Below are positions 5,404-30,791 of a stretch of DNA of 64,000 nucleotides, one piece after another. The stretch comes from Advenella mimigardefordensis DPN7 (GTDB lineage Bacteria > Pseudomonadota > Gammaproteobacteria > Burkholderiales > Burkholderiaceae_B). A program made the position numbers and the translations under genes. The stretch's first letter is position 1, and each line of letters opens with the position of its first letter. The notes under the pieces were generated by a model. The model was not told the DNA's origin. It did no database searches and was given only the letters and a program-made list of their open reading frames with translations. The DNA is taken from contig NZ_CP003915.1 in NCBI RefSeq assembly GCF_000521505.1, forward strand, positions 1,674,001-1,738,000, in the 5' to 3' direction.

Positions 5404-5463
5404 GTGGCCTTCCATGACGAGGCCTTCCACGACATGGCCTTCCACGACATGGCCTTCCAGGAA
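5404..5463. repeat. 15-bp tandem repeat, 4 units
   Basis: Four head-to-tail units of 15 bp with consensus RTGGCCTTCCACGAC (units at 5404, 5419, 5434 and 5449, the last diverging at its end). The array ends 9 bp from the stop codon of the minus-strand glycine-rich lipoprotein gene. No credible gene overlaps it; short frames through it only read a pentapeptide repeat. It belongs to the set of gene-3'-end arrays listed in the findings. Confidence 0.9.
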
Positions 5464-5472
5464 GGCATGCCG

Positions 5473-5826
5473 TCAGTTTCCACCGTACAAATCGGCTTTT
5501 TCACGAGGTGCGGCCTCGGCCGGCGCTTGTGGGTCATAAATCACGGTGCTGGTGCCAATGCCGGTGCCAACGCCCGCACTTGCCCCTGAGCCGATGCTGG
5601 TGCCTACGCCAACACCTACGCCGGCGCCGGCAGACACCCGGCCGCCATGGCCAACGCCCACACCCGCGCCAACTGGCCCGATACCGGTGCCAAGGCTGAT
5701 GCCGCCGCTGCCGACACCCAGCGACAAGCCACTGACCAGCGGTACTCTGACGCCAAAACCGGCAGAGCAACCGCCCAGCAGCAGGGCGCCGGCGACGATA
5801 AAGGTAGGTTTAAGCAGGTTTGACAT
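5473..5826 (-). CDS. glycine/valine-rich lipoprotein, function unknown
   Basis: Predicted lipoprotein of 117 residues, not assigned to a known family. The start at 5826 gives a short basic N-terminus, a hydrophobic segment and the lipobox LGGC. The mature part is almost entirely Gly, Val, Ala, Ser and Thr with GVGVG, GTGIG and SAGAG motifs over about 70 residues, then a charged tail ending in YGGN. Such low-complexity Gly/Val repeats can form beta structure or surface fibres, but that is inference. The DNA is a degenerate repeat of GGC/GTC codons, so the length may vary between strains. A longer frame reaches 5886 but lacks a signal peptide at its start. Confidence 0.7.
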   Translation of the reverse strand: MSNLLKPTFIVAGALLLGGCSAGFGVRVPLVSGLSLGVGSGGISLGTGIGPVGAGVGVGHGGRVSAGAGVGVGVGTSIGSGASAGVGTGIGTSTVIYDPQAPAEAAPREKADLYGGN

Positions 5827-6063
5827 GACACGCCTTGGATAATGCCGTCTGGGCAGAAAAACGAAAAAGAGATCAAAATCTAGCATACAACGTTGTAATG
5901 GCTATTAAAACAAGTGCAATTTTTTGCAAACAATGTAATAAATGCCGCAAGGCGCCTGCCTTGGCCGATCATGTGGGCGATGGCCGGGTTATGATGCGGC
6001 AAATGCCCACTATTTCGCCGGGAAGAGGCATGCTGCATGCATCAGCCGTACCCGGATGATACC

Positions 6064-6070
6064 AAGGAGA
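6064..6070 (+). promoter_or_regulatory. ribosome binding site deciding the start at 6075
   Basis: AAGGAGA lies 4-5 bp before ATG 6075 but only about 1-2 bp before the alternative TTG at 6072, so the ATG is taken as the start of the small lipoprotein. Confidence 0.7.
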
Positions 6071-6074
6071 ATTG

Positions 6075-6332
6075 ATGATACGCCATTGCGTGATGACGGT
6101 TGCTGCGACGCTTGTGCTGTCCGGCTGTGCATCAAAAGCGATTTATGATCAGAATGATGTGCACTTTATCCTGCCCTGCAAGACCGATACGGCAGCATGC
6201 ATGAAAAAGATGGAGCAATCCTGCGCCGAACTCAAGGGCCAGGTCATGTCACGCAATATCGTTCAGGAAGAGCTGCCTGTGGTGCAGGTGATTTGCCGGC
6301 CTCCGGTCAAAAAGAAACCGGAGGCTGAATAA
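6075..6332 (+). CDS. small lipoprotein, function unknown
   Basis: 85-residue predicted lipoprotein. The N-terminus has a short basic start, a hydrophobic core and the lipobox LSGC. The mature part carries three further cysteines (in PCKTD, AACMKK and QSCAEL) plus VICRPP near the end, and finishes in a lysine-rich tail, so disulphides in the periplasm are likely. I do not recognise the family. A strong ribosome binding site supports translation. It is a single-gene unit facing the converging LOG-family gene. Confidence 0.65.
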   Translation: MIRHCVMTVAATLVLSGCASKAIYDQNDVHFILPCKTDTAACMKKMEQSCAELKGQVMSRNIVQEELPVVQVICRPPVKKKPEAE

Positions 6333-6333
6333 A

Positions 6334-6360
6334 CCGCTGCCGCTGCCGCTACCGTTGCCG
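6334..6360. repeat. degenerate hexamer repeat after a stop codon
   Basis: About four copies of a GCTGCC-like hexamer (GCTGCC, GCTGCC, GCTACC, GTTGCC) begin 2 bp after the stop codon of the small lipoprotein gene. It is short, so it may be coincidental. Confidence 0.5.
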
Positions 6361-6446
6361 CGCACTGCGGCGGCGGTATCAGCGCTTCAGGGATGATCTC
6401 CGTGGTTTAATACAGGCTGCCTGGTATGAACGTTCGGCGTTTCTGT

Positions 6447-7115
6447 TCAGCACAGCCCGACACAGCTGGCATCCAGCGCGTATTGCTGATGTCTGGCCTG
6501 AATGTGTTCAACCACCTTGTGTGGATCGTCTTCGACGATAAACAGATCCAGATCGTGTTCCGAGATCAGCTTATTGACCACCAGCTGGTTGCGGATCCAG
6601 TCCATCAGCCCTTGCCAGAATTCGGAGCCGACAAAGACAACTGGCGCTTTGCTGGCCTTGCCGGTCTGGATCAGGGTCAGGGCTTCGAACATTTCGTCCA
6701 GTGTACCGAACCCGCCGGGCATGATGATATAGCCCGCGCTGTTCATGAAAAAGGTGGTTTTGCGCGAGACAAAATATTTGAAATACAGGCTGTCGGTCTG
6801 GTAGCGGTTGTCTTTCTGTTCGTGAGGCAGTTCGATATTCAGGCCGATACTGGTCCCGCCCGCTTCATGGCAACCCTTGTTGGCGGCCTCCATGATGCCG
6901 GGGCCGCCGCCGGAAATGACATTGAAGCCTGCCCTGGCAAGTAGACCGCTAATCTCCTGGGTTTTGGTATAGTAGGGCGAATCTGACCGGATCCGTGCAC
7001 TTCCAAAAATGCTTACCGCTGCGGTCAAATCCTTGAGATGATCGGCCGCTGTCAGCAGCTCGCTGGTTATCTCGTTTATCTGACCCTGAATCGTTGTTGC
7101 TTTTGTTACTGACAT
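6447..7115 (-). CDS. LOG-family (TIGR00730) phosphoribohydrolase-like protein
   Basis: Rossmann-fold protein of 222 residues in the LOG family, long mislabelled lysine decarboxylase; characterised members release the base from nucleoside 5'-monophosphates (cytokinin activation in plants, related purine nucleotide hydrolysis in bacteria). The two diagnostic motifs are present: GGGPGIMEAANKG and PGGFGTLDE (PGGxGTxxE). The about 34 residues before AVSIFGSARI fit the helical N-terminus of the family. Its ATG overlaps the polA ATG on the opposite strand by two bases, an exceptionally tight divergent arrangement. AAGG about 9 bp upstream could serve as the ribosome binding site. Confidence 0.85.
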   Translation of the reverse strand: MSVTKATTIQGQINEITSELLTAADHLKDLTAAVSIFGSARIRSDSPYYTKTQEISGLLARAGFNVISGGGPGIMEAANKGCHEAGGTSIGLNIELPHEQKDNRYQTDSLYFKYFVSRKTTFFMNSAGYIIMPGGFGTLDEMFEALTLIQTGKASKAPVVFVGSEFWQGLMDWIRNQLVVNKLISEHDLDLFIVEDDPHKVVEHIQARHQQYALDASCVGLC

Positions 7116-9831
7116 GAAAAAAACCTTGTTACTTGTTGACGGATCAAGCTATTTGTACCGCGCCTTCTATGCGATGCCCGATCTGCGTAATGCGCGTGGA
7201 GAGCCCACTGGCGCCCTGTATGGCGTGATAAACATGATGCGAAAATGCATTGATGATTATAAGGCCGATTATGCCGCATGTATTTTTGATGCAAAGGGGA
7301 AAACATTCAGGGATGATTTGTATCCCGAATACAAGGGGGACAGACCGTCCATGCCCGATGATCTTGCTGTGCAAACGGGTCCTATTCATGAGGCCATACG
7401 CGCAATGGGCTGGCCCGTTATTGCCGCGCCGGGTGTAGAAGCGGATGACGTGATTGCAACGCTGGCCGATATGGCTGCCCGCTCCGATATTCACACTATT
7501 ATATCAACTGGCGACAAGGATTTGGCGCAACTGGTCAATTCCCATATTTCACTGGTCAACACCATGACCGGTGAAAACCTGGACGAGGCTGGTGTGCTGG
7601 CCAAGTTCGGTGTCCGGCCCGAACGTATTGTGGACTACCTGATGCTGATCGGCGATAACGTGGATAATGTGCCGGGTGTAACCAAGGTGGGCCCCAAGAC
7701 GGCCGTCAAGTGGCTCAATGAATATGACAGTATCGATAATCTGGTTGCCAATGCAGATCAGATCAAAGGTGTTGCCGGTCAAAACCTGCGTGACGCAATT
7801 GCGCAGTTTGAACTCACCCGGAATCTCATTACCGTCAGGCGCGACTGCGAACTGACCGAGTTCATGCAGAGCGTGGAAGACCTGCTGCCCAGGGCCCCCG
7901 ATGTTGCGACCCTGACGAATATTTATGACCGTTACGGCTTTCGCACCTGGCTACGGGAGTTGACGGGGGACGCAGAGCGGGTGCCGGAGCAGGATGCGCG
8001 GGTGGCGCAGAATCTGCCCGATGCGCCTGCGCAGATCAATTATCAGACCGTAGATACCGCTGAAAAATTCGATGCGTGTCTGGCCGCAATCAAACAGGCG
8101 GAACGGGTAGCGATTGATACGGAAACCACTTCCCTGAACCCCATGCAGGCCAGCCTGGTGGGTATTTCACTTGCTATTGAGCCGGGGGCGGCCTGGTATA
8201 TTCCGCTGGGGCATCGCGGAACCGGAGCCGGCACGCAACTGGACAAGGCCCACACCCTGGCGGCGCTGCGCGACTGGCTGCAGGACGAGCGCGCGGCCAA
8301 GATTCTGCATAACGCCAAATATGACAGCCATGTGTTTCTGAATGAAGGTATTACCCTGTCCGGTATTAAAGACGATACCATGCTCATGGCGTATGTGCTG
8401 GAGTCGCATCGCAGCGTGGGTATGCAGGAACTGGCGCAGCGCTATCTGGGACGAACCGGCACCACCTACGAGGAAATTTGCGGCAAGGGCGCCAAGCAGA
8501 TCGGCTTTGATGAAGTGGATATTGAAACGGCCACGCATTATGCCGCCGAAGATGCGGACTTCACGTTGCAGCTTTTTCAGGCGCTTGCCCCTCTGGTTCA
8601 GGAGCAGGAAGGGCTGGAGCGCATTTATCGGCTGGAAGTGCAGGTATCACGGGTCCTCACATTGATCGAACGCAATGGGGTGCGCATTGATGAAACCATG
8701 CTGCGCCAGCAAAGTGCGCAGATCGGCGCCAAACTTGTGGAGCTGGAAAATAAGGCTTATGAGCTGGCCGGACAGCCCTTCAATCTGAATTCCACCAAAC
8801 AGCTGGGTGAAATTCTGTTTGGCAAAATGAATCTGCCTGTGTTGCGCAAGACGCCCAAGGGCGCGCCGTCTACCGACGAAGATGTGTTGTCCAGGCTGGC
8901 GGCAGACTATCCCTTGCCACGTACGCTGCTGGACTATCGCAGTCTGGCCAAACTCAAGTCTACCTATACCGATAAGCTGCCGAAAATGATTAATGCGTCG
9001 ACCGGGCGGGTGCATACTGATTATGCGCAGGCGGCAGTCATTACCGGCAGGCTGGCTTCATCTGATCCCAATTTGCAGAATATCCCGGTTCGCACAGAGG
9101 AGGGGCGTCGCATCCGTATGGCGTTTATTCCTTCGGATGGGGGCGTGATTGTTTCTGCCGATTATTCCCAGATCGAATTGCGGGTCATGGCGCATTTGTC
9201 GGGCGATGCCAATCTGCAGAAATCGTTTCAGGAAGGCGAGGATATTCACCGCGCCACCGCGGGCGAAGTATTTGGTGTGGCGCCAGAGGCCGTCAATGCT
9301 GAGCAGCGCCGTGCCGCCAAGGCCATCAATTTCGGGCTGATCTACGGTATGAGCGCATTCGGGCTGGCGGCCAATCTGGGTATTACGCGCGATGCCGCGC
9401 AAACCTATATTGATCGCTATTTCGCGCGGTATCCGGGAGTGGCCGATTATATGTCGCGCATCAAAAAGGAAGCCGCTGCCAAAGGTTATGTGGAAACGGT
9501 TTTTGGTCGTCGTCTGTGGCTACCCGAGATCAATGGCAAAGGGCCACGGCGTGCCGGTGCCGAGCGGGCCGCCATTAATGCGCCTATGCAGGGTACCTCG
9601 GCCGATCTGATCAAAATGGCCATGGTCGCCGTACAAGCCTGGCTGGAAAAGGAAAAACTGTCGTCGCGCCTGGTCATGCAGGTGCACGATGAACTGGTGC
9701 TGGATGTACCGGGCAGCGAGCAGGCGCTGGTCACCCAGGCATTGCCGGGGCTGATGTGCGACGTAGCCAGCCTGGCAGTGCCACTGGTGGCCGAAACCGG
9801 GGTCGGCCATAACTGGGAAGAGGCGCATTAA
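7114..9831 (+). CDS. polA: DNA polymerase I
   Basis: Repair and Okazaki-fragment polymerase of 905 residues with all three activities. The 5'-3' exonuclease spans residues 1-290 (LLVDGSSYLYRAF at the start). The 3'-5' proofreading domain appears active: AIDTETTSL supplies Asp and Glu, NAKYD and YAAEDAD supply the other acidic residues. The polymerase domain shows motif A (SADYSQIELR), motif B (RRAAKAINFGLIYGMS) and motif C (QVHDELVLD). No clear ribosome binding site precedes the ATG, which shares two bases with the start codon of the divergent LOG-family gene. The stop codon lies inside the first unit of a 14-bp tandem array. Confidence 0.98.
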   Translation: MKKTLLLVDGSSYLYRAFYAMPDLRNARGEPTGALYGVINMMRKCIDDYKADYAACIFDAKGKTFRDDLYPEYKGDRPSMPDDLAVQTGPIHEAIRAMGWPVIAAPGVEADDVIATLADMAARSDIHTIISTGDKDLAQLVNSHISLVNTMTGENLDEAGVLAKFGVRPERIVDYLMLIGDNVDNVPGVTKVGPKTAVKWLNEYDSIDNLVANADQIKGVAGQNLRDAIAQFELTRNLITVRRDCELTEFMQSVEDLLPRAPDVATLTNIYDRYGFRTWLRELTGDAERVPEQDARVAQNLPDAPAQINYQTVDTAEKFDACLAAIKQAERVAIDTETTSLNPMQASLVGISLAIEPGAAWYIPLGHRGTGAGTQLDKAHTLAALRDWLQDERAAKILHNAKYDSHVFLNEGITLSGIKDDTMLMAYVLESHRSVGMQELAQRYLGRTGTTYEEICGKGAKQIGFDEVDIETATHYAAEDADFTLQLFQALAPLVQEQEGLERIYRLEVQVSRVLTLIERNGVRIDETMLRQQSAQIGAKLVELENKAYELAGQPFNLNSTKQLGEILFGKMNLPVLRKTPKGAPSTDEDVLSRLAADYPLPRTLLDYRSLAKLKSTYTDKLPKMINASTGRVHTDYAQAAVITGRLASSDPNLQNIPVRTEEGRRIRMAFIPSDGGVIVSADYSQIELRVMAHLSGDANLQKSFQEGEDIHRATAGEVFGVAPEAVNAEQRRAAKAINFGLIYGMSAFGLAANLGITRDAAQTYIDRYFARYPGVADYMSRIKKEAAAKGYVETVFGRRLWLPEINGKGPRRAGAERAAINAPMQGTSADLIKMAMVAVQAWLEKEKLSSRLVMQVHDELVLDVPGSEQALVTQALPGLMCDVASLAVPLVAETGVGHNWEEAH

Positions 9832-9909
9832 AAGAGACTCATAAAAAAGAGGCATTAAAAGAGATTCATTAAAAGAGATTCATTAAAAAAGACTCGTTAA
9901 AAGAGGCGT
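9827..9909. repeat. 14-bp tandem repeat, 6 units, starting in the polA stop
   Basis: Six units with consensus ATTAAAAGAGATTC begin at 9827, 9841 (13 bp), 9854, 9868, 9882 and 9896. The first unit contains the polA stop TAA (9829-9831). Every unit repeats a TAA; relative to the polA frame these fall in frames 0, 1, 0, 2, 1, 0, so all three frames are closed by the fourth unit. Confidence 0.92.
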
Positions 9910-10063
9910 ACGTACTGTTAACCAGAGTAAAGATGGGGTCAGCGGGATCGATCAGGATGATCGCGCTGATCGCTGCGCATGAGCGCGCGATGCCATAGCG
10001 CTATTGCATGCGAAATGATATGCTTTGAGATCCGTTCCCCGGATGTTTTCCAGGACCCATCCC

Positions 10064-10702
10064 ATGTTTGATATTGTTCACTTCCCGCTGTTTGCGGCTT
10101 CTGCCTTTGCGCTGTCGATTACGCCTGGCCCGGATCTGGCCTATGTGGTGGGGCAAAGCCTGGGCAATGGCCGACGTGCCGGCGTGATTTCAGCTGCCGG
10201 GGTGGCCATAGGCAGCTGCGCGCATACCGTTGCGAGTGCCGTAGGCCTGACTGCACTGCTGGCTGCATCACCCGTGTTGTTCACCATCGTCAAGTTTCTG
10301 GGCGCCGTCTATCTGATCTGGCTTGGGGCGAAAATGTGTCTGGGCAGTTTGCAGCGGCGCAAGGCAGCGCAGACTGACGTTGCCTTGCCGGTGGCTAACA
10401 CGCACTCGTTGTTGCTGCGTGGCTTTCTGACCACCATTACGAATCCGAAAGTGCTGCTCTTTTTTATTGCCTTCTTTCCCCAGTTTGTTACCGTGGGCGG
10501 AGACAATCAGGCAGTATCATTTCTGCTGCTTGGATTGGCTTACGCCGTGATTGGATTTGTCTGCGATGCCACGTTTGCCTGGCTGGCGGGAAGCGCGGCA
10601 GGTGCCGTGTCACGGAATCAGACTGTTAAAGCCTGGATAGACCGCGTGGTTGGTCTGGCGTTTATTGCACTGGGCCTGCGTATCTGGCTGACGAAGCGTT
10701 GA
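10064..10702 (+). CDS. LysE/RhtB-family amino-acid exporter
   Basis: Inner-membrane exporter of 212 residues of the LysE/RhtB superfamily, which moves amino acids or homoserine derivatives out of the cell; the substrate cannot be read from sequence. The family signature ITPGPDLAYVVGQSLGNGRRAG follows the first membrane segment, then a glycine-rich helix (ISAAGVAIGS) and four more hydrophobic segments, with TNPKVLLFF in the middle. The start at ATG 10064 fits the family; a TTG at 10025 would add 13 residues with no match. It is monocistronic. Between polA and this gene there is only the tandem array and a GATC-rich stretch. Confidence 0.9.
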   Translation: MFDIVHFPLFAASAFALSITPGPDLAYVVGQSLGNGRRAGVISAAGVAIGSCAHTVASAVGLTALLAASPVLFTIVKFLGAVYLIWLGAKMCLGSLQRRKAAQTDVALPVANTHSLLLRGFLTTITNPKVLLFFIAFFPQFVTVGGDNQAVSFLLLGLAYAVIGFVCDATFAWLAGSAAGAVSRNQTVKAWIDRVVGLAFIALGLRIWLTKR

Positions 10703-10830
10703 GCTTGTATTGATCTCCCGCCCTCGCCGAAGAGTGACGGGGCAGGATTGTCTGGCTATGAACCTATTGATGGGCACGATCCGGCCCGCAACGCAGGCTG
10801 GTCGTGCCGATGTTGCCTGGCTCCGGTTGC

Positions 10831-11715
10831 TCAGGAATGAGCGACGCGTGCGCGCAGCGCGTTGATACGATGTTCAATCGGTGGATGCGTGGAAAACAGG
10901 GCTGCCACACCAGCGCCGCCGCTGATGCCCGCGGATTCGAACTGCTTGGGCAATTCGCCGGGGTGCATGCCGCCCAGCCGGGCCAGCGCATTAATCATGG
11001 GTGAGGCCGAGCCGAGCATTTGCGCTGAGCCGGCATCGGCGCGATATTCGCGCTGGCGCGAAAACCAGGCCACAATAATGGACGCCAGTATGCCGAACAC
11101 GATCTCACAGACGACCACGGTGATGTAATAACCCGGTCCTACGCCCCGTTCGTTCCGGAAAACCGTACGGTCAATGAAGTACCCGACCACGCGGGCAAGG
11201 AACACGACAAACGTATTGACCACACCCTGGATCAGGGTCAGCGTCACCATGTCGCCATTGGCAATATGCGCCACCTCGTGGCCCAGCACGGCGGTGACTT
11301 CTTCTTCATTCATGCTGTTGAGCAGGCCGGTAGATACTGCCACCAGCGAATCGTTTTTGAAAGCCCCTGTGGCAAAGGCGTTGGGTTCGCCTTCATAAAT
11401 GGCGACTTCAGGGTGGCCGATGCCGGCACGATCAGCCAGTTGATGGACGGTATCGACCAGCCACAGTTCTCTCTGGCTGCCTGGCGCTGCCGGATCGATC
11501 ATCTTCAGGCCCATGGTCCATTTGGCCATCGGTTTGCTCATCAGCAGGGAAATAAAGGCGCCAACGAAGCCGACTACAGCAGAAAATGCCAGCAGCTGAC
11601 CCATATTGATGCCGTTTGCATCCATATAACGGTTCACACCCAGCAGGTTCAGCGTGAAGCCCAGCACCACCATAACGGCGAGGTTGGTTATAAGAAAAAG
11701 AATAATGCGTTTCAT
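10831..11715 (-). CDS. htpX: membrane zinc metalloprotease HtpX
   Basis: Inner-membrane M48-type protease that degrades misfolded membrane proteins, partly redundant with FtsH. The 294-residue product has two N-terminal membrane segments (residues 3-25 and 38-58), the zinc motif HEVAH at residues 146-150, two further membrane segments and a downstream EYRADAG motif supplying the third zinc ligand. It starts with MKRIILFL as in other HtpX proteins. It is a single-gene unit divergent from the EamA transporter. I did not find a convincing sigma-32 promoter upstream. Confidence 0.95.
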
Positions 11716-11899
11716 GCAACAGGTCCTTGTAGGAAGGGATCAGTCCGGATAACAAATCTCGGGTCCGAGTTAGTCTGCCAGCCGGAGCTTAAAAATAACT
11801 GAATTAGCCCAGATCAATTATATAAGGGCGATGTTGTCCTTTTACAGTGTTGTTCGCAGTAGAATATTATTTTCTTTTCAAGTAATTTCCGGATTTAAC

Positions 11900-12784
11900 A
11901 TGCAGGCACTGTGGATGTTAGTGGCTTCTCTCATGTTTGCCATCATGGGGGCTTCAGTCAAACTGGCATCGGAACATGCCGCGTCCTTGGCACTGGTCAT
12001 CCTGTTCCGCGGCCTGCCATCGGTCGTACTGCTTGTCGTCTGGGCCGTGACGACTCATAAATCCCTGAAACCCAAAAGCATTCGCCTGCACTTGATGCGC
12101 AACGTATTTGGCGTGGGCGCCATGTGGATGGCATTTTACGGCTATACCGTCCTGCCGCTGGCCACCAGCACCAGTTTGAATTACACCTCGCCCCTGTTCA
12201 TTGCGGGCTTTTTGCTGCTATCGGGCAAGGCCAGCAATGATATCGTGCGCACGCTTGCGGTGGGCATCGGTTTCGCCGGCGTGTTGCTGATCCTGCGCCC
12301 CAGCATTACCGAAGATCAATGGTTTGCCTGCGCTCTCGGTCTGCTGGCAGGAGCCAGCGGCGCCGTAGCCATGTTGCAGGTACGCCAGCTTGGGTCAATT
12401 GGCGAGCCCATCTGGCTGACGGTCCTGTATTTTTCTGTGTTCGTAACGGGTACCAGTTTAATTGGTATCAAGGCCCATGGTATTGGCGAGCCTGATCTGG
12501 TTTCCTGGGTTGCCTTGCTTATGGTCGGTCTGTCCGGCCTGTTTGGCCAACTGGCACTGACGCGCGCCTTCGGTTCAGGCTCGCCGCTGCTGTCAGCAGC
12601 GCTGCAGTATACAACCATCATTTTTTCCGCGGGTATCGGTATTGTGGTATGGCATAATGCGCCGGACGTCCTGGCATGGCTGGGCATGGGCATGGTGATA
12701 TTGGCCGGGCTGCTTTCGGCATGGCGCACACTGGTGCTGGCAGAGAGGCATAAGAAATCGCAGCTAGTGAAGACCACTGCCTGA
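11900..12784 (+). CDS. EamA/DMT-family transporter
   Basis: Drug/metabolite transporter family permease of 294 residues with about ten membrane segments arranged as two EamA repeats, one from about residue 1 and one from about residue 145. The start at 11900 (MQALWMLVASLMFAIMGA) places the first EamA helix at the N-terminus; 23 extra upstream codons lack family resemblance. The substrate is unknown; relatives export amino acids, nucleosides or other metabolites. The stop TGA lies inside a duplicated 14-bp unit, and a strong terminator follows about 40 bp later. Confidence 0.88.
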   Translation: MQALWMLVASLMFAIMGASVKLASEHAASLALVILFRGLPSVVLLVVWAVTTHKSLKPKSIRLHLMRNVFGVGAMWMAFYGYTVLPLATSTSLNYTSPLFIAGFLLLSGKASNDIVRTLAVGIGFAGVLLILRPSITEDQWFACALGLLAGASGAVAMLQVRQLGSIGEPIWLTVLYFSVFVTGTSLIGIKAHGIGEPDLVSWVALLMVGLSGLFGQLALTRAFGSGSPLLSAALQYTTIIFSAGIGIVVWHNAPDVLAWLGMGMVILAGLLSAWRTLVLAERHKKSQLVKTTA

Positions 12785-12803
12785 TCGCGACTGCCTGATT
12801 CGG
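12776..12803. repeat. 14-bp duplication spanning the EamA stop codon
   Basis: Two adjacent units, ACTGCCTGATCGCG and ACTGCCTGATTCGG, match in their first 10 bases and beyond. The stop TGA of the EamA gene (12782-12784) sits in the first unit and is repeated 14 bp later in another frame. It is a minimal version of the 3'-end arrays. Confidence 0.7.
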
Positions 12804-12823
12804 TCGCTCAGGTTTGCGTCCAT

Positions 12824-12875
12824 AAAAACGACACCTTTAAAGATGAGTTGCCCCAGCTTTAAAGGTGTCGTTTTT
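12824..12875. terminator. bidirectional intrinsic terminator
   Basis: A perfect 19-bp inverted repeat (12824-12842 with 12857-12875) encloses a 14-nt loop, with an A-run on the left and eight T on the right. It can end transcription from the EamA gene and from the converging Rieske gene. Confidence 0.92.
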
Positions 12876-12970
12876 TTTGGGTGCCGTTCAATTCCGGCGC
12901 CTGCGATACCGGCCACTCACGAACGCCGGCAGTGGAAGCGCGCCTGCCTGCTGGTGACGATGCGCGCAGC

Positions 12971-13030
12971 CAATGGGTGTGTCTGTAATGGGCGTGTTTG
13001 CAACGGGCGTGTCTGCAACGGGCGTGTCTG
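12971..13030. repeat. 15-bp tandem repeat, 4 units, beside the Rieske stop
   Basis: Four 15-bp units with consensus CAACGGGCGTGTCTG start at 12971, 12986, 13001 and 13016; the last two are identical. The array ends one base before the stop codon (13032-13034) of the minus-strand Rieske gene. Reading it as protein only gives a CNGRV repeat in a frame without other support. Confidence 0.9.
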
Positions 13031-13031
13031 A

Positions 13032-14171: not shown

Positions 14172-14253
14172 GAGATGCCCCCCGATGAAAACAAATGCCG
14201 CCTCACCAAGGGTCATGAGCCGGCATAAAGGTTGGTAAATAAAAAGGAGGGTA

Positions 14254-18580: not shown

Positions 18581-18623
18581 TTACGTAATTTTTACGTGAT
18601 TTTGACGTGATTTTTTACGTGAT
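18581..18623. repeat. four phased TTTACGTGAT repeats upstream of rpsF
   Basis: TTACGTAATT, TTTACGTGAT, TTGACGTGAT and TTTACGTGAT occur with ACGT cores at 18583, 18594, 18605 and 18617, spacing 11, 11 and 12 bp, thus on nearly the same helix face. They end just before a TTGACT (18626-18631) that could be the -35 box of the rpsF operon. They could bind an activator or be an AT-rich upstream element; this is inference. Confidence 0.65.
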
Positions 18624-20467: not shown

Positions 20468-20559
20468 GACATTTTTGCCTGCGTGGTTCTGATCCTGTTT
20501 TGATGCCGCTCTCTACGGCAGCAGATCATCACGTTACCCCTTTCCCGGTTTACCCTGCC

Positions 20560-21942
20560 ATGAATGCTCCTGATCCTCAACTGGATTCCCTGCGTCTGCC
20601 ACCTCATTCGGTTGAGGCGGAACAATCCGTGCTTGGCGGATTGCTCATCGACAATGCACAACTGGAGAATATCAGCGGTCTGCTCAACGAGGACGATTTC
20701 TATCGTCATGATCACCGTTTATTGTTCCAGCATATTTGCAAACTGATCAATCTGGATCGTCCGGCTGACGTCATTACGGTGCACGAATCGCTGGTGCTCG
20801 AGAGCAAGTCGGACGAGGTTGGCGGTCTGGCTTATCTGGATGCGCTCACCCGCAACACGCCGTCAGCGGCGAATATTATTCGCTATGCGGAAATTGTTCG
20901 CGAGCGGGCGATCCTGCGCAAACTGGTCACCTTTGCCGACGAAATTGCATCCGAGGCGCTCAATCCCAAGGGAAAAGAAGCACGTCAGCTGCTGGACGAA
21001 GCAGAATCGCGGATCTTGCAGGTTTCCGAAGGATCGTCTGCAGGCAGTGAGTTCAAGGAAGTAGGTGATCTGCTGGTCGATGTACTTAAGCGGATCGAGG
21101 AGCTGGGCGAGGGCGATCACGGTGATGTTTCCGGGATTCCTACCGGCTTTGTGGATCTGGATCGCAAAACCACGGGTTTACATCCGGGCCAGCTGGTAAT
21201 CGTAGCGGGTCGGCCGGCCATGGGTAAAACCTCGTTTTCCATGAATATTGCCGAGCACGTCGCCATCGACGAAGGTTTGCCCGTAGCGGTTTTTTCGATG
21301 GAGATGGAGGCCACCCAGCTGGCAGGCCGGATGATTGGTTCCATCGGCAAGCTGGATCAGCAGCGTATGCGCACCGGCAGGCTGCTGGATGAGGATTGGC
21401 CCAAGCTGACACACGCCATGCAATTGCTGCAGGAAGCCCAGATCTATATTGACGAGAGTCCGGCACTCAGCCCGCTGGTGCTGCGCTCACGTGCTCGCCG
21501 GTTAAAGCGCAAGTGCGGCAAACTGGGCCTGATTGTGGTCGACTATTTGCAGCTGATGTCGGGCAATGCCCTGTCCAAAAACGATAACCGAACGGCCGAA
21601 ATCTCTGAAATCAGCCGTTCGCTTAAAACCCTGGCCAAGGAAATGGAATGCCCCGTGATTGCGCTGTCGCAGTTGAATCGGGGCCTGGAGCAGCGTACCA
21701 ACAAGCGGCCGATCATGAGTGACCTGCGCGAATCGGGCGCGATCGAGCAGGATGCCGACCTGATTCTGTTCATTTACCGTGATGAGGTGTATCACCCCGA
21801 TAGCCAGGACAAAGGCTCAGCCGAAGTGATTATCGGCAAGCAGCGTGCAGGCCCGATTGGTACGGTCCGGCTGACCTTTGCGGGTGAATATACCAAGTTC
21901 ATGAACTACGCCGGCCCGGGCGACAGCTTTATCGCAGAATAG
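20560..21942 (+). CDS. dnaB: replicative DNA helicase DnaB
   Basis: Hexameric 5'-3' helicase that opens the replication fork and contacts primase. The 460-residue product from ATG 20560 has the N-terminal DnaB domain (SVEAEQSVLGGLL near its start), a linker, and a RecA-type motor with Walker A GRPAMGKTSF at about residues 216-225, Walker B-like LGLIVVDYLQLM, and SQLNRGLEQR. In-frame TTG/ATG codons at 20500 and 20503 would add about 20 residues; they lie downstream of the -10 box, so they are not excluded. No intein interrupts it. Confidence 0.97.
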   Translation: MNAPDPQLDSLRLPPHSVEAEQSVLGGLLIDNAQLENISGLLNEDDFYRHDHRLLFQHICKLINLDRPADVITVHESLVLESKSDEVGGLAYLDALTRNTPSAANIIRYAEIVRERAILRKLVTFADEIASEALNPKGKEARQLLDEAESRILQVSEGSSAGSEFKEVGDLLVDVLKRIEELGEGDHGDVSGIPTGFVDLDRKTTGLHPGQLVIVAGRPAMGKTSFSMNIAEHVAIDEGLPVAVFSMEMEATQLAGRMIGSIGKLDQQRMRTGRLLDEDWPKLTHAMQLLQEAQIYIDESPALSPLVLRSRARRLKRKCGKLGLIVVDYLQLMSGNALSKNDNRTAEISEISRSLKTLAKEMECPVIALSQLNRGLEQRTNKRPIMSDLRESGAIEQDADLILFIYRDEVYHPDSQDKGSAEVIIGKQRAGPIGTVRLTFAGEYTKFMNYAGPGDSFIAE

Positions 21943-21947
21943 AAACG

Positions 21948-21992: not shown

Positions 21993-22050
21993 GCGTGTGC
22001 CATGCGCTATAAGCGCATGACACGGTGTATTTCGCCTTGCGGGCGCTTTA

Positions 22051-22120
22051 TTTTACATGCTTGCTTTTACGGGTATGCTTTTACAGACCTGCTTTCGCAG
22101 GCATGTTTTTACAGGCTTGC
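22051..22120. repeat. 14-bp tandem repeat, 5 units, abutting a stop codon
   Basis: Five 14-bp units of the type TTTTACAGGCATGC start at 22051, 22065, 22079, 22093 and 22107. The array touches the stop codon (22121-22123) of the minus-strand transporter gene. Read on that strand the stop TAA begins a shortened unit and TAA recurs in four of the five following units, covering all three frames. Confidence 0.9.
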
Positions 22121-23155
22121 TTAGGTCGGTTTTTTGAGCAATGTCTCTTCTTCATCCTGGTCAACAGGAATCTCTTGCGGGCGCTTGCCCAGCCGGGCGG
22201 CAATCACGGCGCATACCATCAGCTGGATTTGATGGAAAATCATCAGGGGCAGGATAATCGCCCCCACCGCCTGGCCTGCAAACAGTACCTGCGCCATCGG
22301 CAGGCCACTTGCCAGGCTTTTCTTCGATCCGCAGAACACAAGTGTGATGCGGTCTTCAAGCGAGAAGCCCAGCAGGCGCCCGGTCAGTGACGTCAGAAGC
22401 AGCACAAGGCCCAGCAGCAGGACACTCACGAACACCACAGCCACGAGGGCCTCAATGGGGGTTTTATGCCAGAGGCCTTCATTAACAGCCTCGGAAAAGG
22501 CCACATAGACCACCAGCAGGATAGAGCCCTGATCCACAAACTTCATGAGCGAAGCGTGCCGGCCGATAAAGCCTGAGGTCCATGGGCGGCTGAGGTGTCC
22601 CAGCGCAAAGGGCACCAGCAGTTGCAGGGTGATCTTGCCAATGGCTTCCAGTGCCTGGTTCGGATCTGCAGATGCGTTGCTGTCGGCAATCAGTAAATTG
22701 ACCAGCATGGGGGTGATGAAGATGCCCAGAATGCTGGACGAGGACGCGCTGCATACGGCTGCGGGGATGTTACCGCGGGCGATGGAGGTAAAGGCGATGG
22801 CTGACTGCACGGTGGCGGGTAGTACGCACAGATAGAGTACGCCTTTGTACAGATCAGGCGTGAGCATGGGTTCCAGGACCGGGCGCAGAAGAACGCCCAG
22901 CAATGGGAACAAAATGAAGGTGCAGGAGAAAATGACCAGATGCAGCCGCCAGTGCGTTGCGCCGGCGATAATCGCCTGGCGCGACAGACGTGAGCCATGC
23001 AGGAAAAACAGCAGTGCAATGGCCAGATTGGTGACCAGCTCGGCGACAGGCATACCCTGGCCATGAGCGGGTAACACAGACGCAATAATAACGGCGATGA
23101 TCAACAACAGGGTAAAGCGGTCGATTTTCAGGAAACGAAGCAGGGACTGGGACAT
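22121..23155 (-). CDS. YfeH-like bile acid:sodium symporter family protein
   Basis: Inner-membrane transporter of 344 residues from the bile acid:sodium symporter/arsenical resistance-like superfamily, YfeH subgroup. About ten membrane segments are visible; family landmarks are ALLFFLHGSRLSR near residues 48-60, LPATVQSAIAFTSIARGN in the middle and FCGSKKSLASGLPMAQVLF near the end. The substrate is unknown. It ends in a charged tail (DQDEEETLLKKPT). It is a single-gene unit, converging with dnaB. Confidence 0.88.
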   Translation of the reverse strand: MSQSLLRFLKIDRFTLLLIIAVIIASVLPAHGQGMPVAELVTNLAIALLFFLHGSRLSRQAIIAGATHWRLHLVIFSCTFILFPLLGVLLRPVLEPMLTPDLYKGVLYLCVLPATVQSAIAFTSIARGNIPAAVCSASSSSILGIFITPMLVNLLIADSNASADPNQALEAIGKITLQLLVPFALGHLSRPWTSGFIGRHASLMKFVDQGSILLVVYVAFSEAVNEGLWHKTPIEALVAVVFVSVLLLGLVLLLTSLTGRLLGFSLEDRITLVFCGSKKSLASGLPMAQVLFAGQAVGAIILPLMIFHQIQLMVCAVIAARLGKRPQEIPVDQDEEETLLKKPT

Positions 23156-23447
23156 TGCACGGTTCTACGGTTAAGGATTGAATGGTTGCGGCTATTGTAC
23201 TCAATCCTGTGGCCAATGCAGTGGGGGCCTGGTGCGCGGCGGGCGCAAGTACACGCTTATCGGGTTGATTGATCGCGGTGCAAATATACGTCCCGGCACC
23301 TGACAATGAGCCCATAACCCCCGGTTTTAGAGGCTTGTGAGCCGGTGGGCTGTGTCCCGGGCAGGTATGTTGAGCCGCTGCGGAACAACAGTTATGGACA
23401 TCGGGTAAAATCACCTTGAACCTCTGGTGATATATTCTTAGTCAATA
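23156..23447. other. intergenic stretch, no gene seen
   Basis: Between the YfeH-like gene and the phoH terminator I see no credible reading frame. A small inverted repeat (ATCACC with GGTGAT, 23410-23431) is present. The promoter of the YfeH-like gene should lie here, but no clear boxes were found. Confidence 0.5.
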
Positions 23448-23498
23448 AAAATAAAAAAGGCCGATGCCCCGCTAATACTGCGGGTGTCATCGGCCTTT
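23448..23498 (-). terminator. intrinsic terminator of phoH
   Basis: A hairpin with 10-bp outer arms (23456-23465 with 23489-23498) and an inner CCCGC/GCGGG pairing is followed on the minus strand by a T-rich run (TTTTTTATTTTTATTG), 28 bp after the phoH stop. Confidence 0.88.
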
Positions 23499-23525
23499 GC
23501 CTTTCACTGCGCTTAATCGTTAGCG

Positions 23526-25334: not shown

Positions 25335-25411
25335 AGATAGTTTCTCACATGGCTGTTGTTCCATGGGCGGTTGCGCCATGGAAAAGGGTACCTCGCAGGG
25401 CCCGGACGGGG

Positions 25412-25897
25412 CTAATCCTGTTTTGCGGCATTCAGGTTACGCACGGCATCCAGCACGGCATCGACATGGCCTGGCACTTTCACTTTGCGCCATTCCTGCA
25501 CGAGTTTGCCCGCTTCATCGATCAGAAAAGTGCTGCGTTCAATCCCGCGTACCTGTTTGCCGTACATGTTTTTCATCTTGATGACGTCAAATTGTGTGCA
25601 CAAGGCTTCGTCGGCGTCGGACAACAGGGCAAAGGTCACGTTCTGCTTGGTGGCAAAGTTTTCGTGGCTTTTAAGCGAATCGCGCGAGACGCCCAGAATG
25701 ACGGTGTTTTCGCTTTCGAAGTCGCTCAGTGCGTCCCGGAACCCCTGGGTTTCTGTGGTGCATCCGGGGGTGTTGTCCTTGGGATAAAAATACAGTACGA
25801 CGTTTTTGCCTTTAAGGGCGGTCAGGGAAACCGGGCCAAGCTGGCTCTCTGCCTTAAAAGCCGGTACCTTTTTGCCGACGGTGGGGGGGCTGGTCAT
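25412..25897 (-). CDS. bcp: thiol peroxidase, Bcp-type peroxiredoxin
   Basis: Thioredoxin-dependent peroxidase reducing hydrogen peroxide and organic hydroperoxides in the cytoplasm. The 161-residue product has the thioredoxin-like core with peroxidatic Cys46 in DNTPGCTTE. The Cys five residues later found in E. coli Bcp is absent (CTTETQ), so it is a 1-Cys enzyme or uses Cys100 (EALCTQF) as resolving residue. The start at 25897 has GGAGAA at good distance, and is one base after the stop of the upstream Mth938-like gene, so the pair is coupled. Confidence 0.95.
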   Translation of the reverse strand: MTSPPTVGKKVPAFKAESQLGPVSLTALKGKNVVLYFYPKDNTPGCTTETQGFRDALSDFESENTVILGVSRDSLKSHENFATKQNVTFALLSDADEALCTQFDVIKMKNMYGKQVRGIERSTFLIDEAGKLVQEWRKVKVPGHVDAVLDAVRNLNAAKQD

Positions 25898-25898
25898 T

Positions 25899-26342
25899 TT
25901 ATTCTCCTTCACTGAGCATGAGCGCGACTGCAACATTGCGGCCTTCTGCCATCAACACATTATAGGTGCGTGCCGCCGCTTTTGAGTCCATGGATTCGAT
26001 GCCTACACGGGCAGCCAGCAGGGGCGCGGTCACAGCCGCAGGTAGAAAATGCTGCCGCGTGCCGGTGCCCACGAGCAGGATTTCAGGTGTGTTGGTAAAT
26101 CTGGTGACGGGGCCATCGTCAAGAAAGTCGATGGCGCTGCCTTCAACCTTCTGAATGTCCGCGGCCAGAATCAGCTGCTCTGTTGTAATGTCGCTGACGG
26201 CGGTCACGTTCCATGGGCGGACGGTACCTTCAGGGCGAAACGCAATGGCATGAGTATATTGAACTTCATTGACTTCGATGAAGTGGTCCCCGTAGCGGGT
26301 GACCGTGTTTAGTGCGGTTGGCTGTTCTCTTTTCAGTTCCAC
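25899..26342 (-). CDS. Mth938-like domain protein (DUF498)
   Basis: 147-residue protein of the Mth938/NDUFAF3-like family, whose bacterial function is not established. The conserved features are the VNEVQYTHAIAFRPEG start and the core EILLVGTGTRQHFLPAAV followed by GIESMDSKAAARTYNVLMAEGRNV. The eukaryotic relative helps assemble respiratory complex I. It is coupled to bcp, with one base between stop and start, which suggests an oxidative-stress or redox context, an inference from position only. Confidence 0.85.
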   Translation of the reverse strand: MELKREQPTALNTVTRYGDHFIEVNEVQYTHAIAFRPEGTVRPWNVTAVSDITTEQLILAADIQKVEGSAIDFLDDGPVTRFTNTPEILLVGTGTRQHFLPAAVTAPLLAARVGIESMDSKAAARTYNVLMAEGRNVAVALMLSEGE

Positions 26343-26412
26343 AAAGACTCCTTGTGCGTTTATCTTATTCTAACTGTATTTCATATATGTGATAGTGGTC
26401 CCGTGATAATTT

Positions 26413-26569
26413 CGCCACGCGGGGATGGTCTTGCCCTAACCTTGCCTTCGCGAAATAGGGAATGCCCGCAGTGGCGGTCACGTCACGGTCAGGGGCGGGC
26501 GCCGGTTCGGCAAGCGCAGGATGTCCCCTTTTTTGTACTGCAATGACACAGTCATTGCAAATTTTTTTT
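26413..26569 (+). ncRNA. structured leader RNA with terminator before alaC
   Basis: A region without a gene on the same strand holds a long stem (26413-26423 with 26465-26476, one bulged A), an inner stem (CCCTA 26434-26438 with TAGGG 26456-26460), and then a textbook intrinsic terminator: perfect 9-bp stem TGCAATGAC/GTCATTGCA (26539-26547 with 26551-26559), 3-nt loop, and eight T (26562-26569). The nearest upstream genes run the other way, so the terminator can only act on a transcript that starts here. It is either an attenuator or riboswitch of alaC-hom-thrC or a separate small RNA of about 160 nt. Confidence 0.6.
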
Positions 26570-26663
26570 GTGCATCTGCAAAATCGTTTGCCGTACGGCC
26601 TTATATACGCTAGATTTACTGGTTTCACCCTAAATTTGTTCCTTCACTTATTCCAGGTCCGTC

Positions 26664-27854
26664 ATGAGAAACTTCCCACGTATAGAAAGGCTCCCCCCCT
26701 ATGTATTTAACATTACCGGCGAGCTGAAAATGGCGGCGCGCCGACGTGGCGAAGATATCATCGACATGTCCATGGGTAATCCGGATGGCCCGACACCCAA
26801 GCATATTGTCGACAAAATGGTAGAGGCGACCATTCGCCCCGATACCCACGGTTATTCAGTGTCCAAGGGCATTCCGCGCCTGCGTAAAGCGATCTCCGAC
26901 TGGTATTCCCGTCGTTACAATGTGATTCTGGATCCCGACAAGGAAGCCATTGTCACCATCGGCTCCAAGGAAGGGCTGGCTCATTTGATGCTGGCTACGC
27001 TGGACAAAGGCGACACGGTGCTGGTTCCTAACCCCAGTTACCCTATCCATATCTATGGTGCGGTCATTGCCGGCGCCAATATCCGCTCCATTCCCATGAA
27101 AAAGGGGCTTGATTTCTTTGAGGAAATCGAGCGAGCCGTGCGCGAGTCTATTCCAAAGCCGAAAATGATTATTCTGGGTTTCCCCAGCAATCCCACCGCG
27201 CAGTGTGTCGATCTGCCGTTTTTCGAGCGGGTAGTCAAGCTGGCCAAAGAGCACGATATTCTGGTTGTACATGATCTGGCGTATGCCGATATCACGTTCG
27301 ATGGCTACGAGGCACCTTCCATCATGCAGGTGCCGGGCGCCAAAGAGGTGGCTGTCGAATTCTTTACCATGAGTAAAAGCTACAATATGGCCGGCTGGCG
27401 TGTAGGCTTTATGGTGGGTAACGCTGAACTGGTTAATGCGCTGGCCCGCATGAAAAGCTACCACGATTATGGTACGTTCACGCCTATCCAGGTGGCTTCC
27501 ATCGCCGCTCTGGAAGGTCCGCAGGAGTGTGTGGCCGAAGTGGTCGCGCACTACAAAAATCGCCGTGATGTGCTGGTCAAGGGACTGCATGAAGCTGGCT
27601 GGATGGTAGAAATTCCAAAGGCGGCCATGTATATCTGGGCTGAAATCCCCGAGCCCTACAAAGCAATGGGATCACTGGAGTTTTCCAAGAAGCTGCTGGC
27701 CGATGCCAAACTGGCCGTCTCTCCGGGTATCGGTTTTGGCGACCTGGGCGACGATCACGTGCGTTTCGCCATGATCGAAAACGAACAGCGTACGCGCCAG
27801 GCAATCAGAGGAATTAAAGAAATGTTCAAAAAAGACGGGTTCCTGAAGAAATGA
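26664..27854 (+). CDS. alaC: alanine transaminase AlaC
   Basis: Pyridoxal-phosphate aminotransferase of fold type I, 396 residues, that forms alanine from pyruvate and glutamate. The N-terminus [18 protein letters not shown] is characteristic of AlaC. The cofactor lysine lies in [15 protein letters not shown], with [10 protein letters not shown] and GFPSNPTAQ as substrate and phosphate-binding blocks. It is first in an operon with hom and thrC and overlaps hom by 4 bp (ATGA). A possible attenuator precedes it. Confidence 0.95.
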
Positions 27855-29155
27855 ATCCAATGAAGGTAGGTTTATTAGGTTTTGGCGTAGTGGGCAGTGG
27901 CACGTACGCGGTGTTAACGCGCAATGCCGAGGAAATATCACGTCGTGCCGGACGCCAGATCGTGGTGTCCAAAGTGGCGACGCGCACGCCGGCCAAAGCG
28001 GTGGCGGTGTTCGGCGACCGGGTGCCGGTCAGCAATGACTTGGCCGGCCTGGTGGCCGATCCCGAGGTAGATATTGTTGTCGAACTGATCGGTGGCACGA
28101 CCCGCGCCCGGGAACTGGTGCTGGCTGCCATTGAAAACGGCAAGCACGTGGTGACGGCCAATAAGGCATTGCTCGCGCTGCACGGGAATGAAATTTTTGC
28201 CCTGGCCAGCAAAAAAGGCGTCATGGTGGCCTTTGAGGCGGCTGTCGCTGGCGGTATCCCGATTATCAAGGCGATTCGTGAAGGTCTGACAGCCAATCGG
28301 ATTCAGTGGCTGGCCGGCATTATCAATGGCACCACCAATTTCATTTTGTCGCAAATGCGCGAGCACGGTCTGCCCTACGAGACGGTGCTGGCGCAGGCCC
28401 AGCAACTGGGCTACGCCGAGGCGGATCCTGCCGGCGATGTCAAAGGCATTGATGCGGCCCACAAGCTGACCCTCATGGCCTCTCTGGCGTTTGGTATCCC
28501 CATTCAGTTCAGCAAGGCGCATATTGAAGGCATTGCCGACCTGGATCAGCAGGATATTGTTTACGCGGAGCGTCTGGGTTATCGCATCAAGCTGCTGGGC
28601 ATCACGCGCCGCCGTGAACAGGGCATTGAACTGCGCGTGCACCCGGCACTGGTACCGAACAAACGGCTGATCGCCAATGTTGAAGGCGCCATGAACGCCG
28701 TGGTTGTCAACGGTGATGCGGTAGGCGATACGCTGTATTATGGCCCCGGCGCGGGTTCCGAAGCGACGGCCTCGGCTGTGGTGGCCGATCTGGTTGATGT
28801 GACCCGGCTGCATACGTCCGATCCCGGCAATCGTGTGCCGCACCTTGCATTCCAGCCAGGCGCGTTGTCAGACACGCCTATCCTGGATATGGAAGACGTA
28901 CGCACCAGCTACTATCTGCGTCTGTCGGTGGAAGACCGCTCCGGGGTGCTCGCTGACCTGACTCGTATCCTGGCAGATCATCAGATTTCGATCAACTCCA
29001 TGATGCAGGAACAGGACGGGGAAAACCGTGCCATCATTATTTTCCTGACGCACGAGGCCCGGGAAGGTGATGTGAATACGGCGATCAAAACCATTGAAGC
29101 CATGCCTTTTGTGTATTCGTCCATTACGCGTATTCGTCTGGAACATCTGGACTGA
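27851..29155 (+). CDS. hom: homoserine dehydrogenase
   Basis: Reduces aspartate semialdehyde to homoserine, the branch point to threonine and methionine. The 434-residue product has an N-terminal NAD(P)-binding GFGVVGSG, the catalytic region [14 protein letters not shown] and [19 protein letters not shown], and a C-terminal ACT domain from about residue 353 ([21 protein letters not shown]), which normally gives feedback inhibition by threonine. It is translationally coupled to alaC. Confidence 0.97.
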
Positions 29156-29236
29156 CTGATCTGACCGGCACGACCGTCTGCAGCAGGGTCGTGTCTTCTT
29201 GTTTCCGGCAGGTGATGCCGGCATAACGGAGCAATA

Positions 29237-30670
29237 ATGAAATACATTTCAACCCGTGGCGGCATGAGCCCGGTGTCTTTTTCCGAAATTCTGCTTGAAG
29301 GGCTGGCGCGTGATGGTGGCCTTGCGGTACCCGAGAGCGTTCCATCAGTCAGCCCCGCTCAGCTTGAACAATGGCGTTCGCTGTCTTATGCCGAACTGGC
29401 GACGGAAATTCTGAGTCTGTACATTGACGATATTGCGCGCCCTGATCTGGAGCGTATCTGTAAGGCGGCCTATAACGAATCGGTTTTCTCCGGCAGCGAG
29501 ATTGTGCCACTTAAACCGTTGAATCAGTCCATGACGCTGGTGGGCCTGTCCGAAGGACCTACACTGGCTTTCAAAGACCTGGCCATGCAGTTTCTCGGGC
29601 AGGTGTTTGAATTTGTGCTGGCGCGGGAAGGACGCAAGCTGAATATTCTGGGCGCCACCTCGGGCGACACCGGTTCGGCGGCAGAATACGCCATGCGTGG
29701 CAAGCTGGGTGTGTCCGTTTTCATGCTGTCGCCGCAAGGCCGCATGAGTGCTTTCCAGCGTGCCCAGATGTATTCGCTGATGGACGACAATATTCACAAT
29801 ATTTCGGTTAAAGGCGTATTTGATGACTGCCAGGATATCGTTAAGGCACTGGCCGGCGATGTCTCATTCAAAACCAGCTACCATCTGGGTGCAGTCAACT
29901 CCATCAACTGGGCCCGTATTTGCGCGCAGATTGTGTACTACTTCTGGGCCTGGCTGCGTAGCACCGATGCTGCGGCCAGTGCCGGCACCGACGTGTCCGG
30001 ATTTAAGGTATCGTTCACGGTGCCTTCAGGCAATTTTGGCAATATCTTATCCGGCCACTTCGCCCGCCGCATGGGCTTGCCGATTCATCGTCTGGTATTG
30101 GCAACCAATGAGAACAATGTTCTGGAAGAGTTTTTCCGCACGGGTGTGTATCGCCCCCGTGCCAGTGCCGAAACGCTGGCGACATCCAGCCCGTCCATGG
30201 ATATTTCCAAGGCGTCCAACTTCGAGCGTTTTGTTTTCGACTTGCTGGGTCGGGATGCGAAACGTCTGGCGCAAATCTGGAAAACACTGGGGCAGAACGG
30301 GGCCTTTGATCTGTCTGCCGAAAAAGCACGCTTTACAGAAGAGTTTGGTTTCGTTGGCGGTTGCAGCACACATGCGGATCGCCTGAATACGATCCGTCAG
30401 GTGCAGGAGCAGTCAGGCGTGCTGATTGATCCGCATACGGCCGATGGGGTAAAGGTCGCACAGGCATTCGTCGAAGAGGGCATCCCGATGCTGGTTCTGG
30501 AAACCGCATTGCCCGCCAAGTTTGGCGAAACCATCCAGGAGGCAACAGGCAAGGAACCGCCGGTGCCCGAGCATTTGAAGTCGCTGGCTGATCTGCCCCA
30601 GAAAGTGGTCATCATGGATAATGATGTTGAAGCCATACGCGATTATATTAAAGGGCGGGCGCTACGCTGA
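29237..30670 (+). CDS. thrC: threonine synthase
   Basis: Pyridoxal-phosphate enzyme converting O-phosphohomoserine to threonine. The 477-residue product is of the longer bacterial type: KYISTRGGMSPVSFSEILLEG at the start, the cofactor-lysine region GPTLAFKDLAMQF, and GATSGDTGSAA. It lies 81 bp after hom. The kinase ThrB is not adjacent and must be elsewhere. A degenerate repeat array and then a terminator follow. Confidence 0.97.
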   Translation: MKYISTRGGMSPVSFSEILLEGLARDGGLAVPESVPSVSPAQLEQWRSLSYAELATEILSLYIDDIARPDLERICKAAYNESVFSGSEIVPLKPLNQSMTLVGLSEGPTLAFKDLAMQFLGQVFEFVLAREGRKLNILGATSGDTGSAAEYAMRGKLGVSVFMLSPQGRMSAFQRAQMYSLMDDNIHNISVKGVFDDCQDIVKALAGDVSFKTSYHLGAVNSINWARICAQIVYYFWAWLRSTDAAASAGTDVSGFKVSFTVPSGNFGNILSGHFARRMGLPIHRLVLATNENNVLEEFFRTGVYRPRASAETLATSSPSMDISKASNFERFVFDLLGRDAKRLAQIWKTLGQNGAFDLSAEKARFTEEFGFVGGCSTHADRLNTIRQVQEQSGVLIDPHTADGVKVAQAFVEEGIPMLVLETALPAKFGETIQEATGKEPPVPEHLKSLADLPQKVVIMDNDVEAIRDYIKGRALR

Positions 30671-30714
30671 TCTGAGATGGGCAAAGCTGCAGGTTTAGCC
30701 TGGTACAGGCCTTT

Positions 30715-30791
30715 ATCGTACTTGCAATTATCGCACTTGAAATATAGCCCCTTAGATTCATAGCACGTGAAATACATAGCACTTGAAATAC
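30715..30791. repeat. degenerate 14-16-bp tandem repeat after thrC
   Basis: Five units of the type ATAGCACTTGAAATAC start at about 30715, 30730, 30744, 30760 and 30776; the last two differ by one base, the third is the most divergent. The array begins 45 bp after the thrC stop and ends 26 bp before the terminator hairpin. Confidence 0.8.

Follow-up and report, generated by a model that had tools for sequence, protein, structure and literature searches.

Why should short tandem arrays with unrelated units repeatedly lie where genes end? The question is raised by a stretch of 64 kb of the Advenella mimigardefordensis DPN7 genome (the window, positions 1,674,001 to 1,738,000 of the 4.74-Mb contig NZ_CP003915.1; genome 4.76 Mb), in which a sequence-only reading had described five arrays with units of 14–16 bp, each placed at or just behind a stop codon. 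Using Tandem Repeats Finder (TRF) to call arrays, and our own simple gene caller rather than an official annotation for gene coordinates (its starts are approximate, and robustness was checked by shifting them upstream), we recovered all five at the same sites, with distances to the stops close to those reported. We consider it likely that they are minisatellite-type tandem arrays, short, of recent date and arisen on the spot, copying accidents that are purged from coding DNA and promoters and tolerated behind genes, and that they do not represent a new gene-end element.

To see how such arrays are placed, we sampled twenty 80-kb blocks of the same genome (1.6 Mb, window excluded) for arrays with a period of 10–20 bp. 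Of the sixty found, 13 were genic and 47 intergenic, the latter split into 3 in gaps >1 kb and 44 in gaps of ≤1 kb. Arrays of this kind are far above chance; five dinucleotide-shuffled copies of the gaps yielded 0, 0, 0, 0 and 1 arrays, vs. the 44 real ones. We compared the placement of the 44 with two nulls, random over any intergenic space (5000 permutations) and random within the same gap. The nearest gene end was a stop for 33/44 arrays (20.2 expected over any intergenic space, with the observed number reached in 0/5000 permutations; 28.0 expected within the same gap, p=0.023). Starts were avoided, in line with the sequence-only reading, and arrays were not equally common there (1/44 within 20 bp of a start vs. 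9.9 expected). Measured as the share of bases in arrays (period 7–20 bp, gaps ≤1 kb), the profile rose from 0.04% at 0–24 bp from a start to 1.4–1.7% beyond 150 bp, and on the stop side it ran from 1.4% at 0–24 bp through 2.85% at 50–99 bp and 2.45% at 100–149 bp to 0–0.6% beyond 200 bp. Convergent gaps held 18 arrays in 28.9 kb (0.62/kb), co-directional gaps 20 in 106.4 kb (0.19/kb, p=0.0004 vs. convergent) and divergent gaps 6 in 44.4 kb (0.135/kb, p=0.0005 vs. convergent). The 3' pattern was robust to upstream-shifted starts and to a stricter gene set. Arrays in this genome avoid starts and favour promoter-free 3' space, without a tie to the stop codon itself.

The last point departs from the sequence-only reading, of whose placement claim the preference for the 3' side stands and the anchoring at stop codons does not. 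Within 20 bp of a stop lay 15/44 arrays (9.4 expected over any intergenic space, p=0.034; 12.4 within the same gap, p=0.21), and contact with the stop, seen in 9/44, showed no significant excess over either null (5.8, p=0.11; 7.0, p=0.26). Some wider or stricter sets reached p values of 0.01–0.05 against the any-intergenic null (stop contact in 13/59 arrays vs. 7.6 expected for periods of 7–60 bp, p=0.036; 15/40 arrays within 20 bp vs. 8.0 expected with the strict gene set, p=0.010), but the same-gap null was never exceeded in any version, for stop contact or for 20 bp (p of 0.13 or more). The subset closest to the original claim (period 12–16 bp, gaps ≤500 bp; 25 arrays) had 8 arrays within 20 bp of a stop, with 6.7 expected, which is no nearer than chance would place them, and its 3' preference persisted (20/25 vs. 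11.4 expected; same-gap 17.5, p=0.09). With two nulls and altered gene calls giving this outcome, and with a density that peaks 50–150 bp away, we reject stop-codon anchoring: arrays are no closer than expected to the stop codon itself, whereas they are closer than expected to the 3' side.

The units bear on how the arrays arise. Among 54 intergenic arrays, a set that takes in the window and gaps >1 kb, no similar pair was found (E 0.01), and a search of 1.66 Mb returned no dispersed match (E 0.001); the arrays are mutually unrelated, as had been seen in the window. Like minisatellites, whose units measure from several to tens of bp, they are built of copies arranged head to tail, with a unit match of 73–100% in the sample (70–100% with the window added) and a GC content of 44%. 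The common period noted before is narrow for arrays with at least three copies (12–15 bp in 22/27, 13–14 bp in 15/27). Periods divisible by 3 made up 11/13 genic but 15/54 intergenic arrays. Exact tandem duplications with a unit of at least 10 bp numbered 46 in 284 kb of intergenic DNA vs. 10 in 1,380 kb of coding DNA, about 22-fold denser; one intergenic unit among the 46 exceeded 19 bp, and 9/10 coding units were divisible by 3. The exclusion from starts and the in-frame coding duplications fit purifying selection. In a scripted count, strictly two-copy duplications matched over at most one extra base beyond the unit in 18/21 cases and over 3–5 extra bases in 3/21, and 7 of the 18 homology-poor duplications matched over one base less than the unit. 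Most founding duplications, to judge from these alignments, would thus have arisen without a flanking direct repeat of ≥3 bp, with homology of 1–2 bp still possible. Counted without a score threshold, two-copy duplications were commonest at 10–11 bp (11/21), and arrays with at least three copies, a count that covered periods of 10 bp and above, were commonest at 13–14 bp. An apparent two-copy peak at 16–17 bp was discarded as largely a detection effect, since a TRF score of 50 needs at least 25 bp.

From this spectrum and from the observed placement we infer the birth, growth and selection of the arrays as follows. A stretch of 10–19 bp would undergo tandem duplication, as a rule with no direct repeat of ≥3 bp at its flanks; the duplication could then serve as a template for slippage or misalignment, with units of about 12–15 bp mostly those that reach three or more copies; and selection would remove arrays that lie ahead of starts or, out of frame, within coding DNA. 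They would survive behind genes, above all in convergent gaps, where neither neighbour has its promoter. No function would be needed.

Comparison within the genus speaks to the age of the arrays. We compared the 3' regions of four genes with up to nine congeners (eight for an oxygenase-like gene), one genome per species; in the five close congeners (about 90–95% protein identity) the four proteins end at matching places, and in the four distant ones some ends differ. Behind polA (7114–9831, DNA polymerase I), a 14-bp array of 6.4 copies (9818–9905, + strand) begins 14 bp before the end of the gene, and its first copy consists of the last coding bases plus TAA, so that the array contains the polA stop. 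When a duplication takes in the stop codon, translation still terminates in the first copy and the protein is unchanged. No array was found behind polA in any of the nine congeners, the end of the gene being alike in the five close ones, and the array appears to have grown out of the gene end with the protein unaltered. The 15-bp array of 3.7 copies at 5405–5459 (− strand), 13 bp 3' of the stop of a gene at 5473–5826 (−), likewise has no counterpart in the orthologous gap of five congeners (TRF score ≥46, period 7–20 bp).

Three further gaps hold an unrelated array in A. incenata DSM 23814. A 15-bp array of 4.0 copies (12971–13030, −) lies in a convergent gap, separated by 1 bp from the stop of the oxygenase-like gene 13032 (−), which Rieske-type oxygenase models match with scores below their cut-offs; its gap in A. 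incenata carries a different array. The 14-bp array of 5.1 copies at 22051–22122 (−) overlaps by 2 bp the stop of a gene at 22121–23155 (−), convergent with dnaB (20503–21942), and has an unrelated 7-bp array as its counterpart. The third is a clean 16-bp duplication found by TRF at 39981–40011 (+), 41 bp past the stop of an SDR gene (39208–39939), matched by an unrelated 16-bp duplication. Behind thrC (29237–30670) the copy number varies between species: a 14–16 bp array of about 5 copies (30713–30792, +; by TRF 30713–30789, 16 bp × 5.1 with indels) starts about 42 bp past the stop, between it and a terminator-like hairpin, and the related motif occurs about once in Advenella sp. FME57 (by eye) and in 3.4 copies in A. 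incenata, whose unit is more like ours than shuffles are (p=0.008); in the three other common gaps the units were no more alike than shuffles. With arrays absent, shorter or replaced by unrelated ones in congeners, they appear to be young, in line with the recurrent duplication proposed by the sequence-only reading.

Across the syntenic 64 kb, intergenic arrays (period 7–20 bp, score ≥46) numbered 7 here, 6 in A. incenata, 3 in Advenella sp. S44 and 0 in A. kashmirensis W13003, Advenella sp. FME57 and a further congener, G004. Four of 36 gaps were shared with A. incenata (7 and 6 each; p=0.05 when gaps are weighted by length, p=0.34 when weighted by promoter-free space), and we do not claim recurrent-hotspot gaps; a few large promoter-free gaps explain the recurrence of the same gaps well enough.

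The window itself is array-rich (7 arrays in 64 kb vs. 1–7 per block in the twenty 80-kb blocks, 60 in total with genic ones included), and taken alone it gave no 3' test that reached significance at the 0.05 level (stop as nearest end in 6 of its 7 arrays, 3.4 expected, p=0.053). It also holds a counter-example to stop placement that the sequence-only reading had missed, an 11-bp array of 3.8 copies at 18581–18623 (no strand assigned), in mid-gap, where 223 bp separate it from the preceding stop and 182 bp from the following start. Among the weaker cases put forward with the five arrays, the duplication in the SDR gap and a hexamer repeat at 6334–6361 were confirmed by TRF; those at 12776 and 52201 are visible by eye but are covered by no TRF row with a score of ≥40. 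A second hexamer, GGTTCA × 10.8 at 35220–35284, lies inside a gene called at 34588–36282 (−); its unit of 6 preserves the frame, and the copy number in the protein could vary. polA, dnaB and dnaE (58018–61542) all lie within the window, and polA and dnaB adjoin arrays, probably by coincidence.

Several observations weigh against tolerance of accidental duplications as a full account. Promoter-free space alone does not explain everything: at least 150 bp from any start, density was 0.56/kb within 100 bp of a stop vs. 0.21/kb further away (22 and 9 arrays, 2.7-fold, p=0.011), a contrast that weakens at 250 and 300 bp from starts (p=0.052 and p=0.14), and the residual excess, carried by convergent gaps (0.62/kb) vs. 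co-directional space far from starts (0.24/kb), is unexplained, as are the 13–14 bp preference of multi-copy arrays and the growth of longer units. Fold z-scores lay below −2 relative to mononucleotide shuffles in 12/48 arrays. In 400-kb samples of two congeners, with small counts, the preference for the 3' side did not reach significance (a stop was the nearest end in 5/7 arrays of A. incenata, 3.2 expected, p=0.16; in 6/10 of G004, 4.4 expected, p=0.25), and 4/10 arrays of G004 lay in divergent gaps. The 3' bias is shown for this genome only. The outgroups are a weak control, covering only loci around dnaB with those <12 kb dropped: a gammaproteobacterial set (16/19 loci kept) yielded two genic arrays and one intergenic array in 33.6 kb, and a Clostridium-dominated set (48/50 loci kept, at least one, L235, proteobacterial by title) showed a reversed placement, with 26 intergenic arrays in gaps ≤1 kb divided into 1 convergent, 13 co-directional and 12 divergent.

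The convergent excess invites the reading that convergent transcription is itself a mutational hotspot for short duplications. The densities given above, highest in convergent gaps and lower in co-directional gaps (also far from starts) and divergent ones, agree with it, as do exact duplications in gaps ≤1 kb (15 in 30.0 kb convergent vs. 9 in 45.7 kb divergent, p=0.034); however, a difference in this direction is also expected if constraint is relaxed in promoter-free gaps, the pooled data of two relatives gave 6 in 19.0 kb convergent vs. 5 in 31.7 kb divergent (p=0.35), and the Clostridium-dominated loci run the other way. We give this hotspot a small but real chance of being correct.

A second alternative concerns birth: staggered breaks may be filled in and then sealed through Ku-dependent end joining, so that the overhang is duplicated and unit length equals the stagger. 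The two-copy duplications are short and mostly without flanking homology (18/21), and a Ku gene is present in this genome. Ku is also found in five congeners, however (6/10 genus genomes, the six larger and none of the four smaller), and among these five G004 is poor in exact duplications (2 in 74.7 kb). Selected penA duplications in Burkholderia thailandensis, which would bear on this route according to the Ku status of that species, likewise lack bordering direct repeats in 8/11 cases (available text of PMC4169377). Other repair families did not help: xseA is present in 10/10 genus genomes, SbcC model matches occur in 10/10 but none above cut-off (the sole G009 match is weak, 4.7e-8, and lies in an open frame of about 1200 aa, perhaps another ATPase), and the ExoI C-terminal family was found in 0/10, so that none of the families tested separates this genome from its close congeners. 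In G004, alone among the ten genomes, the xseA match (C1:2595063–2596345) is split between two open frames, which suggests a broken gene or a sequencing error. On balance we regard the Ku-dependent route as unlikely.

It is quite unlikely, in our estimate, that the species carries an active duplicator of its own, one that would be homology-free, strongest in convergent 3' regions and faster than in congeners, with growth favouring 13–14 bp units. Exact duplications are denser here (46 in 284.2 kb) than in G004 (2 in 74.7 kb, p=0.002) and A. incenata (4 in 59.1 kb, p=0.09), and by TRF arrays no significant difference from the same two congeners was found (p=0.22 and p=0.23).

The sequence-only reading had also suggested that the arrays might shape termination or mRNA decay, as functional elements of 3' untranslated regions. 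Their position suggests that many are transcribed, 4/48 lie between a stop and a terminator-like site, and the 12/48 with low fold z-scores would fit such a role. Yet hairpins located with our own finder followed 9/48 array-bearing stops vs. 147/801 3' flanks overall, no association that would support a part in termination; the units share no sequence; and the arrays lack conservation among congeners at the four genes for which 3' regions were compared. We therefore consider a function of this kind improbable. An origin from a dispersed repeat or mobile element (REP, MIRU or CRISPR-like), of a kind whose location behind genes resembles that of the arrays, is highly improbable and refuted at this sensitivity within the 1.66 Mb searched, since neither similar pairs, dispersed matches, nor a shared palindromic REP-like unit (palindromy judged from folding only) was found there, and no CRISPR-like spacers were seen by eye in the five window arrays.

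Are arrays tolerated behind genes, as we favour, of a new kind? The statement that no such element had been described was too strong. In Burkholderia pseudomallei, according to the available portion of PMC1853098, 85 of 609 tandem arrays lie within 40 bp 3' of a coding sequence vs. 19 within 40 bp 5'; these arrays resemble ours in their host order (Burkholderiales), mostly intergenic location and 3' over 5' asymmetry, but their motifs are mostly 6–9 bp and 36.3% have at least partial copies elsewhere, whereas units here are mostly 12–18 bp and no copies elsewhere were found. Xanthomonas and Nostoc carry G-rich heptamer arrays near or overlapping stop codons that vary between close species (PMC4692102, as excerpted), a likeness in position and variability; unlike those, which share one quadruplex-forming 7-bp unit, our 54 arrays of period 10–20 bp have no common unit, G-rich and 7 bp long or other. 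Tandem repeats of the Borg archaeal elements are, in the accessible text of PMC9879509, also independently born, young and different in unit, and can begin at the end of an open reading frame; they are perfect, with A-rich units and 43–65% in open reading frames, whereas ours are degenerate, 44% GC and mostly intergenic (13 genic vs. 47 intergenic), so that perfect units, about half of them in reading frames, are not what we see. The B. thailandensis penA duplications are short, tandem and of independent local birth, mostly without bordering direct repeats like ours, but they are two-copy events in coding DNA under drug selection (PMC4169377, same portion). The part of PMC2884548 available contains nothing on stop codons or convergent gaps, and the literature on Advenella and tandem repeats, judged by titles and the beginnings of abstracts, offered no relevant description of such arrays. 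The kind is already known, and the arrays here clearly add one more case to it, distinguished by a narrow range of unit lengths and by units that are unrelated.

For the biology of this species, the arrays document in nature the origin and filtering of short tandem duplications, preserving their lengths, the usual lack of flanking homology and the sites at which they are tolerated, and they may serve as strain-typing markers. If the duplication rate is raised here, the species would offer a system in which to seek the responsible activity, and if an active duplicator does exist, bacterial minisatellites could be observed here as they are born.

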